From Saprospiraceae bacterium (GTDB lineage: Bacteria > Bacteroidota > Bacteroidia > Chitinophagales > Saprospiraceae), in assembly GCA_022841745.1 (NCBI GenBank), contig JALHQW010000045.1:1-64000 (forward strand): 64,000 bases of DNA, in the 5' to 3' direction. The translations under genes were made by a program, and so were the position numbers. Numbering within the stretch: position 1 is the stretch's first letter; every line of letters begins with the position of its first letter. Below are positions 14,728 through 64,000 of the stretch, one piece after another. Under the pieces are notes generated by a model. That model saw nothing but the letters and a program-made list of their open reading frames with translations, made no database searches and was not told where the DNA came from.

Positions 14728-14848
14728 GCAGTTTAGCCGCTGCCAGTTACATTTGCCCCCACCGCTTGCTTTTGGCATGCAACTGCTTAGCAGAAGGTGT
14801 TTTTCGGGTAAAAATTTCCAATTTTTTACCCAAAAAACAATCCTAAAT

Positions 14849-14893
14849 GTGGGAGTAGAGAGGAAAAATGAAATTTTTTCTTTCTACTCCCAC
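14849..14893 (+). terminator. Hairpin after the amylase gene (terminator-like)
   Basis: 14849-14868 and 14874-14893 form a nearly perfect 20-bp stem (gtgggagtag against ctactcccac at its base) with a 5-nt loop. There is no trailing T-tract, but it sits between the amylase stop and the protease start and likely separates them. Confidence 0.6.
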
Positions 14894-14921
14894 ACCCTCC
14901 TAAGTGGTTACTTGGGCTTTT

Positions 14922-16004
14922 ATGAAAAACATCATTGAGCAGTTCCGAAACATCGTTATCCAGTTAGCCACACCTTATAGTACGGGCACTGGGTTCCTAT
15001 TGCGAAGCCATGGGGTAGTTGTCAGCAATTACCATGTGATTCTAGACAACAAGGAGGTGGTGATAGAGGGCAGTTTATTGAAAAGGCAATTGGCCCAGGT
15101 TGTGTTCACGGACCCGAAGCATGACCTTGCCTTCATAGCTGTGGCCGATTGCCCGGAAGCCCCCGATGCCATTTTGTCAAGAAATGGCGAGATATCAGTA
15201 GGCGATACAGTCGTAGCAATTGGTCACCCATTCGGCCTGAAATTCACGGCCACGCAGGGCATTGTTTCTGGCAGGGAGTTCCTGCAAACCGATTTGCCCT
15301 ATATCCAGCATGATGCGGCCTTGAACCCTGGCAACTCAGGTGGTCCCTTGGTAAATGCGGAGGGCGAAGTTATTGGTGTCAACACCTTTATTATTACGGA
15401 GAGCGAAAGCATGGGCTACTCATTGCCGGTGCAGTACTTGGCGGAAACATTGGAGCAATGGGAAAGCGGCAACAAGCAGGTGGGAACCCGCTGCGGCGAA
15501 TGCGGCACAGCTGTTTTTGAGGGCAAGGACGAGGATGGTTACTGCCCCAATTGCGGAGCAGCCATTGAACTGCCCCATGATATTGCCCCCTACGAACCCG
15601 CAGGGATTGCAAGGACCATTGAAGAGATTTTGGGGAAATGTGGCCACGATGTGCGCCTTGCCCGCCGTGGGCCAAACGTATGGGAAGTGAAGAACGGTAG
15701 CGCCAATATTTCCATCAGTTATTACGAGCCAAATGGCCTTGTGGCAGGTGATGCCATCTTGTGTGACTTGCCCGCCACGAACATCAAGCCCGTTTATGAG
15801 TATTTGCTTCGGCAAAACTTCGAAATGGAGACCTTGAGCTTTAGCGTAAGGGGCAAGGAAGTAGTACTTTCCTTGGTCATTTACGACCGATACCTTAACC
15901 TTGAAACGGGTATGAAACAGTTCAAAAACCTATTCCAAAAAGCCGACTTCTACGACAACCTACTCGTTGAGCAGTTCGGCGCCAGTTGGAAAAAGGAAAA
16001 TTGA
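14922..16004 (+). CDS. Cytoplasmic trypsin-like serine protease fused to a zinc ribbon and a YbjN-like C-terminal domain
   Basis: The ATG at 14922 (MKNIIEQFRNIVIQ) gives 360 residues with no signal peptide. Residues 10-180 form an HtrA/Deg-like S1C protease domain: His38 in SNYHVI, Asp68 in KHDLAFI, Ser139 in NPGNSGGPL, all in the right order. No PDZ domain follows. Instead there is a rubredoxin-like zinc ribbon (Cys191, Cys194, Cys208, Cys211 as CxxC-x13-CxxC), then a domain of about 140 residues resembling YbjN/CesT-type chaperone folds (TIEEILGKCGHDVRLA ... WEVKNGSANISISYY). The architecture suggests an intracellular quality-control protease whose ribbon and chaperone-like part select substrates (inference). 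The last domain is assigned by pattern only. Confidence 0.8.
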   Translation: MKNIIEQFRNIVIQLATPYSTGTGFLLRSHGVVVSNYHVILDNKEVVIEGSLLKRQLAQVVFTDPKHDLAFIAVADCPEAPDAILSRNGEISVGDTVVAIGHPFGLKFTATQGIVSGREFLQTDLPYIQHDAALNPGNSGGPLVNAEGEVIGVNTFIITESESMGYSLPVQYLAETLEQWESGNKQVGTRCGECGTAVFEGKDEDGYCPNCGAAIELPHDIAPYEPAGIARTIEEILGKCGHDVRLARRGPNVWEVKNGSANISISYYEPNGLVAGDAILCDLPATNIKPVYEYLLRQNFEMETLSFSVRGKEVVLSLVIYDRYLNLETGMKQFKNLFQKADFYDNLLVEQFGASWKKEN

Positions 16005-60013: not shown

Positions 60014-62065
60014 CTACTTTTTAATCATTTTCAAAACCTGCATAACCTCGCCTTTTGCGTTTTCTGCTTTCGCAAAATAGACGCCTGCGGGCAGGGTGCT
60101 GGCATTGAAATCGGCGGTGTACTGGCCAGCTTCCATTGGCGCATTGACCAAGGTGCTCACCATTTTGCCGCTCATGTCATAGACCTTGATGCTGAATTGG
60201 CCAGCTTCGGCCACTTCATACTGCATCGTGGTTTGGGTCGTGAACGGATTGGGGTAGTTGGCCATGACCACCTGTGTGCCAGCAATTTCTGGAATGGAAA
60301 CACCTACGCCTGTTTGCGGAGCATTGGGTGCGTGTGCTGCTAGAGCCTCTGGGCCACCACATGCGCCGTCGCCAGGCCAAGGTTGTGCCATGAAGGGAAA
60401 CTTGCGGGTGAAAGGTGCATCGTTCGCTTCTACGCCAGTGGTGTATGTCAGTACGTCCAACAGGTCTTGGGTCACTGGGCTACCACCTGGCACATAATCA
60501 TCGTACCAAAGGCCAATAGCTGCCAATACCACACCCGACACAGCTTGCAGTTCGATGCGGGTCACGTCGTCCTCCAAGCGGCGGCCATTCGGGAAGCCGT
60601 CCATGTTAGGAATCCACTGGAGGTTGGCATTGCTGGCGTAGGCAGGGTTGGTAAGACCCAGCACGGCAGCCTGCACGATGCCCAAGGAACTGAACAATGG
60701 GTGGTTGCGGGGTGTCGGGGGTACTGCCATGTTTAGGCGGAGCATGTCGCCACCGTTCGGCAGGAAGTTGTTGATGAAAGGCTTACCTGCGGCCAATGGG
60801 TTGCCGTTCTTGCCCGTTGCCAGTTGGTAAGGGCGCACATTGGGCACTCCCGTGTGGAAGGCAGGCCAAAGGTCAACCGAGCGGGGCTTTCCGGGGCCAG
60901 GCAGCAGCAGCGTACCGAAAATGGCATCGTCCAATGCTGTACCGGCCACGGCGGCTGTGCCTTTCAGGCTGTAAAGCCCATCCTTGCCATTGCCAAAGTC
61001 AAATGAACCCAAGGCATTGCGTTGGATGCGCAGTGGCGCAAAGCCGGGGACTGCACCGCCGAAGAGGTCATCGTCCATGTACAACGCCAGTTCTGGGTTG
61101 TAAAAAAAGCCGTCCAACTGCGTGTCAGCGAGTTCCTGGTAAGGCGTGAGGGCGTTCCAGTAATCCTTGAAACCAATCGGAATAACGGCCTCGTTGGTCA
61201 GTGGCATGCCAAGGCGGCTCACTTGCACCCAGTTGCCAGAGAAGCTCTGACCGGCTGGCGTCAGCGTGCGGATTTGCTGGCGGCTGGCACTTGCCCAAAC
61301 GCCAATCACGAAGCGGTCGTCGAGGATATTGGCTGGTTGTTGCGGAGCACCGGCCTTGCGCAAGAAAGCAATCGGCACTTCGATGGCAATGGCGCTGGTG
61401 TTCATGCAAGCGAGGCCGTCCCGTGGGTCGCCGTTCTGGCGTGGAAGATCGCCAAGGTCGAACACGCCGCCGAGGTCAACGAAGAAGGGGTCGTCCACGG
61501 AACCAACGAAGGCCCGCTCGCCAGTCGCCGTTTGGCGTACGGCTTTCTTGAACAGGGCATCGTAGGTGGTGTTCAGGCCGACCGGGCCATTGATGCTGCG
61601 GGCACCGATGTTTGGTGGTGGCACTGGCACGTTATCGAGAACCGTCACCCAAGTCTGGCCGCCATTGATGCTCTTCTCCATCTTGTAGGTGGTGTAGAGG
61701 TTCTGCTTGCCGAGGCGGATATTGAAAAACGTCGTCGGGTCTTGGTTCACGATTTTGAAGGTGAAACGGTACGTGATTTCGTCGCCGGGAATGGCGGCGT
61801 TGTTGTCCACGTGGATTTCGTAGCGGATGTTCTCGCCGAACTGGTAGTAGTTCGGTCCGCCCTGTGCCAGTTGCAGCGGATTGAAGGTGGCGATAAGGAT
61901 GATGTTCTGGGTGCGCTCCGGGCTGCGGAAGGCATACACATCCACGTTGTCGGCCAGTGGGTCGTCGGCGATGAGCGGAGCTTCCCGGTGGCTGGAGGCC
62001 GTGGCACTGAGGCTGAAACAGCCCATTGCCAACAGCAGGAAAAGTGATTTTATAATGGATTTCAT
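60014..62065 (-). CDS. DUF4331 protein with T9SS sorting domain
   Basis: This 683-residue secreted protein opens with a signal peptide (MKSIIKSLFLLLAMGCFSLSATA) and the family-defining SSHREAPLIADDPLADNVDVYAF. The DUF4331 domain fills about 24-600 (EIHVDNNAAIPGDEITYRFTF, EFLGTDDPFF-like segments, NFLPNGGDMLRLN). A T9SS sorting domain closes it (MANYPNPFTTQTTMQY ... VYFAKAENAKGEVMQVLKMIKK). The function of DUF4331 proteins is not established. It is the downstream member of a tandem pair, 62065 being 143 bp after the paralog's stop, with 48 bp of matching upstream sequence. Confidence 0.9.
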   Translation of the reverse strand: MKSIIKSLFLLLAMGCFSLSATASSHREAPLIADDPLADNVDVYAFRSPERTQNIILIATFNPLQLAQGGPNYYQFGENIRYEIHVDNNAAIPGDEITYRFTFKIVNQDPTTFFNIRLGKQNLYTTYKMEKSINGGQTWVTVLDNVPVPPPNIGARSINGPVGLNTTYDALFKKAVRQTATGERAFVGSVDDPFFVDLGGVFDLGDLPRQNGDPRDGLACMNTSAIAIEVPIAFLRKAGAPQQPANILDDRFVIGVWASASRQQIRTLTPAGQSFSGNWVQVSRLGMPLTNEAVIPIGFKDYWNALTPYQELADTQLDGFFYNPELALYMDDDLFGGAVPGFAPLRIQRNALGSFDFGNGKDGLYSLKGTAAVAGTALDDAIFGTLLLPGPGKPRSVDLWPAFHTGVPNVRPYQLATGKNGNPLAAGKPFINNFLPNGGDMLRLNMAVPPTPRNHPLFSSLGIVQAAVLGLTNPAYASNANLQWIPNMDGFPNGRRLEDDVTRIELQAVSGVVLAAIGLWYDDYVPGGSPVTQDLLDVLTYTTGVEANDAPFTRKFPFMAQPWPGDGACGGPEALAAHAPNAPQTGVGVSIPEIAGTQVVMANYPNPFTTQTTMQYEVAEAGQFSIKVYDMSGKMVSTLVNAPMEAGQYTADFNASTLPAGVYFAKAENAKGEVMQVLKMIKK

Positions 62066-62087
62066 TTTTTTAAATTGTTGAATTGCT

Positions 62088-62135
62088 TAATTGTTGCATG
62101 GTTTCATGGCTGCATGGTTCCATTGTTTCATGGTT
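62088..62135. repeat. 48-bp upstream word shared by both DUF4331 genes, copy 1
   Basis: Matches 63942-63989 with few mismatches (for example ttcatggctgcatgg against ttcatggctacatgg). Each copy starts 22-23 bp before a DUF4331 start codon, which indicates that the upstream region was duplicated together with the gene, or that the word is a shared regulatory site. Confidence 0.75.
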
Positions 62136-62207
62136 GGAGTGACAGGGTTTAGCAGAGGCTGACTGCCAACTGTTTACCCCTTTGGGGCCAACTGTCGAAC
62201 TGCCAAC

Positions 62208-63920
62208 TCACTCTCCAGTTTCAGTGCCGCTCCAAGGTGTGGCCACGTATGGGAAGCTGGTTTTGAAAGGCTTGTCGTTCTCATCAACACCGGTAGAGTA
62301 GGTGAGCACGTCGAGCAGGTCTTGTGTCACGGGGTTTGTACCATTGAAATCGTCGTACCAGAGGCCAACGGCGGCAAGTACCACACCTGACACAGCTTGC
62401 AACTCGATGCGGGTCACGTCATCTTCCAAGCGGCGGCCATTCGGGAAGCCGTCCATGTTCGGAATCCATTGGAGGTTGGCGTTGGCGTTGTAGGTCGGAT
62501 TGGTGAGGCCCAATACAGCGGCCTGCACAAGTCCAAGCGAACTGAAGTCAGGGCTGTTGCGGGGCGTCGGCGTAGTGGCCATGTTCAAGCGAAGCATGTC
62601 GCCACCGTTCGGCAGGAAGTTGTGGATGAACGGTTTGCCTGCGGCCAATGGGTTGCCAGCTTTGCCCGTAGCGAGTTGGTAGGGGCGAACGTTGGGTACA
62701 CCTGTGTGGAAGATGGGCCAGAGGTCAACCGAGCGGGCCTTTCCGGGGCCAGGCAGCAGCAGCGTGCCGAACACGGCATCGTCGAGGGCCGTGCCAGCAA
62801 GGGCGGGATTGCCCTTCAGGCCGAACAAGCCGTCTTTTCCATAGCCAAAATCAAATGCGCCGAGCGAATTGCGCTGGATGCGCAGCTTGGCCATTGCCGG
62901 CACGGCACCACCAAACAGCGAATTGTCCATGTACAACGCCAATTCTGGGTTGTAGAAGAACTCGTCCATCTGCGTGTCGGCCAGCTCTTGGTAAGGCGTC
63001 AGGCTGTTCCAGTAGTCCTTGAAACCGATTGGAATTACGGCCTCGTTGGTCAGCGGCATGCCAAGGCGGCTCACTTGTACCCATGCACCAGCATCGGTCG
63101 GGTCGTCGCCAGTAGTGCTGAGGGTGCGCATGGCACGGCGGCTGGCACTTGCCCATACGCCGATGACGTAGTCGGGGTCGAGGATGCTGGTCGGGGTAGC
63201 AGGTGCGCCCGCTTTGCGCAGCGTCGAAATAGGCACCTGGATGGCAATGGTGTGGACGTTGGTCTGGCCGATACCGTCACGGCTTGGGCCGTTCTGGCGG
63301 GGCAGGTTGCCAAGGTCGAACACGCCGCCGAGGTCAACGAAGAAGGGGTCGTCGGCAGGGCCGCAGTAGATGCGCTCGCCCGTGGTGGCCGATTCGATAG
63401 CGTCGGCAATCAACTGCTCATAGGTCGTGTTCAGACCAACCGGGCCGTTGATGCTGCGTGGGCCGATGTTCGGTGGTGGTACTTCGCCACCAGAAAGGAT
63501 GGTTGTCCATGTCTGTCCACCGTCCATGCTGCGCTCGCAGGTGTAGGTTGTGCGGAGGTTGCGGGCACCCAGCCGGATGTTGAAGAAGGTGGTCGGGTCT
63601 TCGTTCACCCGCATGAAGGTGAAGCGATAAGTGACCTCGTCACCTGCTACGGCAGCGTTGTTGTCAATGTGGATCTCGTAGCGGATGTTCTCGCCGAAGG
63701 TGTGGTAGTTCGGCCCCCCGTGCGGCAGCTCCGCCGGGATGTAGTTGGCGATGATGGTCACCATGTTCGGATTGTCGGGACTTACAAAGGCGTAAACGTC
63801 CGTGTTGTCGGCCAACGGGTCGTTGGCAATGAGCGGCGCTTCCCGGTGACTGGAGGCCGAGGCCGCCACCCCCCAAAGGCATAGCGCCACGGTCAGGAGT
63901 TTTGAAACGAATGCTTTCAT
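62208..63920 (-). CDS. DUF4331 protein without sorting domain
   Basis: The ATG at 63920 (MKAFVSKLLTVALCLWGVAASA) gives 570 residues with a signal peptide; an in-frame opening at 63998 reads through repeat words. The DUF4331 domain (SSHREAPLIANDPLADNTDVYAF to VLTYSTGVDENDKPFKTSFPY) is closely similar to the neighbour throughout. It ends in ATPWSGTETGE shortly after, so the T9SS sorting domain present in the neighbour is absent, and this one would be released differently or stay periplasmic. It is first in the leftward DUF4331-DUF4331-TPR set and probably arose with its paralog by tandem duplication. Confidence 0.9.
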   Translation of the reverse strand: MKAFVSKLLTVALCLWGVAASASSHREAPLIANDPLADNTDVYAFVSPDNPNMVTIIANYIPAELPHGGPNYHTFGENIRYEIHIDNNAAVAGDEVTYRFTFMRVNEDPTTFFNIRLGARNLRTTYTCERSMDGGQTWTTILSGGEVPPPNIGPRSINGPVGLNTTYEQLIADAIESATTGERIYCGPADDPFFVDLGGVFDLGNLPRQNGPSRDGIGQTNVHTIAIQVPISTLRKAGAPATPTSILDPDYVIGVWASASRRAMRTLSTTGDDPTDAGAWVQVSRLGMPLTNEAVIPIGFKDYWNSLTPYQELADTQMDEFFYNPELALYMDNSLFGGAVPAMAKLRIQRNSLGAFDFGYGKDGLFGLKGNPALAGTALDDAVFGTLLLPGPGKARSVDLWPIFHTGVPNVRPYQLATGKAGNPLAAGKPFIHNFLPNGGDMLRLNMATTPTPRNSPDFSSLGLVQAAVLGLTNPTYNANANLQWIPNMDGFPNGRRLEDDVTRIELQAVSGVVLAAVGLWYDDFNGTNPVTQDLLDVLTYSTGVDENDKPFKTSFPYVATPWSGTETGE

Positions 63921-63941
63921 AAATATAAAGGTTTGATTGTT

Positions 63942-63989
63942 TAATTGTTGAATTGTTTCATGGCTACATGGCTTCATTGTTTCATGGTT
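63942..63989. repeat. 48-bp upstream word shared by both DUF4331 genes, copy 2
   Basis: Second copy of the element at 62088-62135, beginning 22 bp before the ATG at 63920. The right end of the window cuts off the rest of this upstream region, so its full promoter is not visible. Confidence 0.75.
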
Positions 63990-64000
63990 TCGGGGCAATA

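Follow-up and report, generated by a model that had tools for sequence, protein, structure and literature searches.

A predicted cytosolic HtrA-type protease of Bacteroidota with a zinc ribbon and a TY-chaperone domain, and its co-occurring partner protein

Introduction

Bacterial HtrA proteases are envelope quality-control enzymes under PDZ regulation; an export signal or membrane anchor is usual in them, and a C-terminal PDZ domain is usual though not universal. Cytosolic proteolysis is seen as mainly ATP-driven. What, then, is the role of an HtrA-type protease that lacks a leader and a PDZ domain and carries a different C-terminal half? We addressed this question for a gene in a 64,000-nucleotide stretch of contig JALHQW010000045.1 from a Saprospiraceae bacterium (the window), using its domains, its relatives across Bacteroidota, and the genes that accompany it.

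Results

Protease Domain and N Terminus

The window gene (Table 1) encodes a trypsin-like domain (Trypsin_2, residues 22–153, E=2e-27) that the Do/HtrA model TIGR02037 matches with E=1.5e-45. The full His-Asp-Ser triad and the GNSGG motif are present, placing the protein among S1C/HtrA proteases. Upstream of the ATG, an in-frame TAA at 14901 leaves just six codons (VVTWAF), so that no hidden signal peptide is possible, and in an alignment of 41 relatives the N terminus begins at almost the same point. Over the whole protein, mean hydropathy in 19-residue stretches peaks at 1.04, and in the first 45 residues of 44 orthologs it never rises above 1.07; by hydropathy, we found no membrane segment in the window protease or in that N-terminal region of the relatives. 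A domain-profile search of the 360 residues gave no PDZ match. As a control, all six other Trypsin_2/HtrA-type proteases of the 8.4-Mb window genome carry PDZ, and in five of them the N terminus includes a clearly hydrophobic stretch. We conclude that the window protein is apparently a cytosolic S1C/HtrA-type enzyme, with proteolytic activity predicted from its sequence. An earlier sequence-only reading, which had claimed a complete catalytic triad and the absence of signal peptide, membrane anchor, and PDZ domain, was thus correct on each count. The hairpin upstream of the gene (−31.2 kcal/mol, 22 pairs, 3-base loop) suggests that the gene is its own transcription unit.

Elsewhere in the window, we noted two adjacent, similar large proteins, likely a tandem duplicate, which we take to be of the DUF4331 type, and a putative extended L27 in which a long linker rich in Ala, Pro, and Val joins a ribosomal protein L27-like N terminus to a helix-hairpin-helix-like tail.

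Table 1. Features of the window, of the window genome, and of related loci
Feature	Position	Strand	Basis
22-bp hairpin, probable terminator, between GH13-type gene and protease gene	14848..14894		RNA fold
Predicted cytosolic HtrA-type protease–zinc ribbon–TY-chaperone gene, 360 aa	14922..16004	+	ORF, upstream stop, start conserved in orthologs
S1C/HtrA-type serine protease domain, residues 20–185	14979..15476	+	Trypsin_2 and TIGR02037 matches; conserved triad
Catalytic codons H38, D68, S139	15033, 15123, 15336	+	Triad conserved
Predicted zinc ribbon, residues 190–213 (C191, C194, C208, C211)	15489..15560	+	Four Cys invariant in 41 relatives
Predicted TY-chaperone domain (YbjN/class I T3SS chaperone fold), residues 224–356	15591..15989	+	Profile, Pfam, Foldseek
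Putative extended L27	21537..22238	-	
Two adjacent large proteins (SSHREAPLIADDPLADN...), presumably DUF4331-type	60014..63998	-	
Partner gene of the window genome, on another contig, outside the window	G000:C3:24150-25403		
Stand-alone 142-aa TY-chaperone gene, genome G135	L116:7558-7986		
Stand-alone 142-aa TY-chaperone gene, genome G152	L117:7659-8087		
Partner family member with GFFxxLF-like motif	L066:6851-8164		
Partner family member with GFFxxLF-like motif	L092:1486-2802	-	

Relatives and Zinc Ribbon

The nearest named records are Saprospiraceae/Saprospirales metagenome-assembled genomes (MAGs) with 73–78% identity to the window protease. A search for the same architecture across Bacteroidota, which the sequence-only reading had proposed as a check, recovered full-length relatives in 66 of the 199 order-level genomes and in 14 of 395 genomes of a phylum sample. 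The protease is mostly single copy, and almost every member of the window’s family in our sample has it. Eight residues are invariant in 41 relatives (H38, D68, C191, C194, C208, C211, W254, and G259). Because the triad His and Asp, the cysteines, and the domain order are conserved across relatives, a chance or assembly fusion is ruled out; judged by this conservation, the protease–zinc ribbon–TY-chaperone arrangement is old.

The four cysteines are spaced as two CxxC knuckles (C191-x2-C-x13-C-x2-C211), just as the initial reading had it. This segment gives weak matches to several zinc-ribbon families, below curated cut-offs, and is a zinc ribbon with predicted metal binding.

C-Terminal TY-Chaperone Domain

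The last domain had been called YbjN-like, with a structure check against YbjN- and CesT-like folds suggested; we assigned its fold by profile and by model. A PDB search with the single C-terminal sequence returned nothing reliable, and a match came with the family profile only: the profile of 41 relatives hit one chain, 2plg (Tll0839, a YbjN protein), with E=6.5e-6. In Pfam, TY-Chap1 and YbjN were each matched by 12 of these 41 relatives, and CesT by 1. Family-level profiles were needed because PF10722, run directly on the window genome, gave no match. We then relied on an AlphaFold model of the C-terminal domain alone (four sequences; modest confidence, pLDDT 59); a full-length model from four close sequences reached pLDDT 41 and was left out of fold claims. 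The modeled domain runs α-β-β-β-β-α-β-β-α, and we place it in the TY-chaperone fold by comparison with the reference topology α-β-β-β-α-β-β-α (PMC3575483) and by structural match. Its top Foldseek match was again 2plg (E=3.9e-5, TM 0.69); YbjN-type proteins and type III secretion system (T3SS) chaperones run throughout the 50 matches listed, among them SycN-YscB, a heterodimer of TY-chaperone-type fold. On profile and model evidence, the last domain of the window protease is of the YbjN/T3SS-chaperone fold, which bears out the original description.

T3SS chaperones with this fold function as dimers and bind partner peptides, and conservation in YbjN is concentrated in the core and the dimer interface (PMC5398634, PMC3575483). 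By analogy with these relatives, the TY-chaperone domain of the window protease may dimerize and bind peptides. Reading the genes neighboring the protease loci, we recognized no T3SS-type gene.

Partner Protein

Across 44 protease loci there is a single conserved neighbor, a protein of ∼390–470 residues whose gene immediately precedes that of the protease in the same orientation. This arrangement of protease and partner holds for 48 of 72 loci, where 1–56 bp usually separate the matches; at about one third of loci the two genes are not adjacent, and in the window genome they lie on separate contigs, so co-transcription is not required. The partner matched no NCBIfam or PADLOC model, and a plasmid search gave no match for it. 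In Pfam it matches TY-Chap1 only, and weakly (6.9e-4 for the window genome’s own copy). Profile–profile comparison found partner residues ∼63–183 homologous to the protease’s TY-chaperone domain (probability 97.4, E=1.6e-11). When the window genome was searched with a TY-chaperone profile, just two proteins came up at E≤1e-4, the protease and the partner.

The two genes also co-occur. Within the order, 66 genomes have both, 0 have the protease only, 3 have the partner only, and the remaining 130 lack both (Fisher p=1e-49 at genome level and 8e-26 at genus level, illustrative values that overstate independence because the genomes share ancestry). In the phylum sample, all 14 protease genomes have the partner, and one more genome has a weak partner-like match only. 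Within several families, protease and partner were gained or lost jointly. As for the partner-only genomes, in one (G125) the contig ends inside the protease gene. In the other two (G135 and G152), a stand-alone TY-chaperone gene (Table 1) takes the protease’s normal place and overlaps with the partner gene’s end. The sequence-only reading had proposed a cytosolic protease with its own substrate-selection module. The cytosolic protease, ribbon, and YbjN-like domain stand, but a solo selection module is incomplete as a description: given the exceptionless partner co-occurrence and the two genomes that keep a TY-chaperone gene beside the partner, docking or dimerization with the partner has no less support than substrate selection by the domain on its own.

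We also observed a short, amphipathic-looking GFFxxLF-like motif in the partner family, N-terminal in one subgroup and C-terminal in the other; it is a possible membrane or docking peptide. In several genomes of the window’s family (loci L062, L064, L066, L069, L116, and L117), the pair is followed by a PorP/SprF-like gene, related to type IX secretion. We took the proximity of PorP/SprF and GSCFA-like genes to be local synteny within a single family and drew no functional link from it.

Catalytic Decay

Several relatives have degenerate active sites, with the serine or the oxyanion loop gone. One genus with six members has S139G in two (L052 and L057) and AHSGG in place of GNSGG in four (L053–L056), although the AHSGG enzymes might still be active. 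Other disrupted catalytic-serine loops occur in G106 and G018, and H38 and S139 are both gone from a second copy in G175. Zinc ribbon and TY-chaperone domain are intact in the loop-degenerate relatives (L052–L057, L059, L060, and L085); in every catalytically degenerate relative the four cysteines remain, and the partner is still encoded in the genome. The S139G pair shares 92% identity in the TY-chaperone domain vs. 60% in the protease. Domain-wise pN/pS is clearly asymmetric in this pair only, with the AHSGG group showing no greater asymmetry than active enzymes, and is therefore not general evidence. Parsimony on the tree gives up to six separate catalytic losses, with weak deep support, so that fewer are possible. 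The catalytic losses, together with the stand-alone TY-chaperone genes beside the partner, suggest that what is conserved is at heart a complex of two TY-chaperone proteins, whose usual output is proteolysis.

Discussion

The two proteins probably act together as a chaperone–protease pair. We give slightly better than even chances to a specific form of this proposal, in which a cytosolic S1C protease works in a dedicated two-protein complex with an obligate partner that carries a homologous TY-chaperone domain. The protease’s TY-chaperone domain would dock with that of the partner, presumably as a heterodimer, so that the two form a cytosolic module that holds or selects substrates and bears the protease. 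The partner, or a joint chaperone surface, would grip unfolded or exposed peptide segments, and these would be handed to the ATP-independent serine protease or would switch it on; the zinc ribbon may serve as a rigid linker or a second contact. Physical contact, peptide binding, substrate delivery, and protease activity of the pair are all predictions of this scheme. A broader version is more tentative, and we place it somewhat short of an even chance: an energy-independent cytosolic chaperone–protease machine of Bacteroidota, built on an obligate TY-chaperone heterodimer that holds substrates. The HtrA-type protease would be a detachable output of this machine, lost or inactivated several times.

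Alternatively, the TY-chaperone domain could only homodimerize and select the protease’s own substrates, the partner being its main client or substrate or a stress-released, zymogen-like inhibitor. Most YbjN proteins and T3SS chaperones form homodimers (PMC5398634, PMC3575483), and strict co-occurrence suits a protease–client or protease–inhibitor pair equally well. However, the two genomes without protease and zinc ribbon retain a TY-chaperone domain beside the partner, and the pseudoprotease genomes retain a partner that would be unneeded in a protease–substrate or protease–inhibitor pair; we consider this explanation unlikely. Far less room is left for an ordinary exported HtrA with a mis-called start and a diverged protease tail. 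Its catalytic domain is clearly HtrA-like, but the in-frame stop just upstream, the conserved ortholog starts, the lack of a hydrophobic N terminus in all 44 relatives, and the independent fold assignment of the C terminus make this barely credible, and barring an unconventional export route, the sequence evidence refutes it.

Two further explanations take the pair into specialized pathways. In a defense or cell-death system, the partner would sense phage or stress and free the cytosolic protease. PADLOC reports similarity of the protease to RT-Protease_XI (E=7e-18), along with weaker ones, and TY-Chap1–3 are named in predicted ADP-ribosylation immune systems (PMC9503650). Yet the PADLOC matches fall in the generic trypsin fold, and the partner has none; the neighboring genes are housekeeping-like and, except for the pair, not conserved across families; and the pair is usually single copy and nearly family-wide in our samples, with the partner lacking a plasmid match. 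Having found no match to a known anti-phage protease in PADLOC beyond the generic trypsin domain, and no defense neighborhood, we regard a defense role as improbable. A cytosolic export-linked chaperone, for example in type IX secretion, with the protease as processing enzyme, would fit the secretion-chaperone fold of the C-terminal domain and the PorP/SprF-like gene that adjoins the pair or lies close to it in several genomes of the window’s family, including both genomes with a stand-alone TY-chaperone gene. Neither the window nor the loci of the pair in other families show this neighbor, though, and TY-chaperone folds occur beyond secretion as well (YbjN, DR1245), leaving an export role quite improbable.

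The S1C catalytic domain, the zinc ribbon, and the TY-chaperone domain are each of a known kind. In the open-access journal articles that we searched, we found no earlier description of their fusion or of the obligate partner. The preferred reading, a two-protein TY-chaperone complex with an attached protease, suggests what the partner family, for which neither Pfam nor NCBIfam has a full-length name, might do. With the natural series of active enzyme, pseudoprotease, and lone chaperone domain, the question of which part matters can be tested directly.

Compared with HtrA/Deg proteases (MEROPS S1C: DegP, DegS, HtrA2), the window protease shares the catalytic domain, triad, and NPGNSGGP motif but lacks leader, anchor, and PDZ and has a zinc ribbon and a TY-chaperone domain instead. 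Plant PDZ-less Deg proteases such as Deg5 likewise have a Deg/HtrA catalytic domain without PDZ and are organellar; to our knowledge, and likened here by description only, they have neither zinc ribbon nor TY-chaperone domain. The C-terminal fold is common to the YbjN family, Tll0839 (2plg), and DR1245 (4h5b) by profile and structure; these known members stand alone, whereas the window domain is fused to a protease. TY-Chap1 (Pfam PF22551) is the best-matching named family for both the protease relatives and the partner; its description concerns ADP-ribosylation conflict systems, and the text mentions no protease in that connection (PMC9503650). MamO (PMC4794232), a repurposed HtrA-type protease that gave up catalysis and kept another role, parallels the pseudoprotease lineages, although as a magnetosome protein it is not an architectural relative. 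If the proposed complex exists, it would couple chaperone and protease in a different manner, with PDZ swapped for a secretion-chaperone fold and a partner of the same fold.
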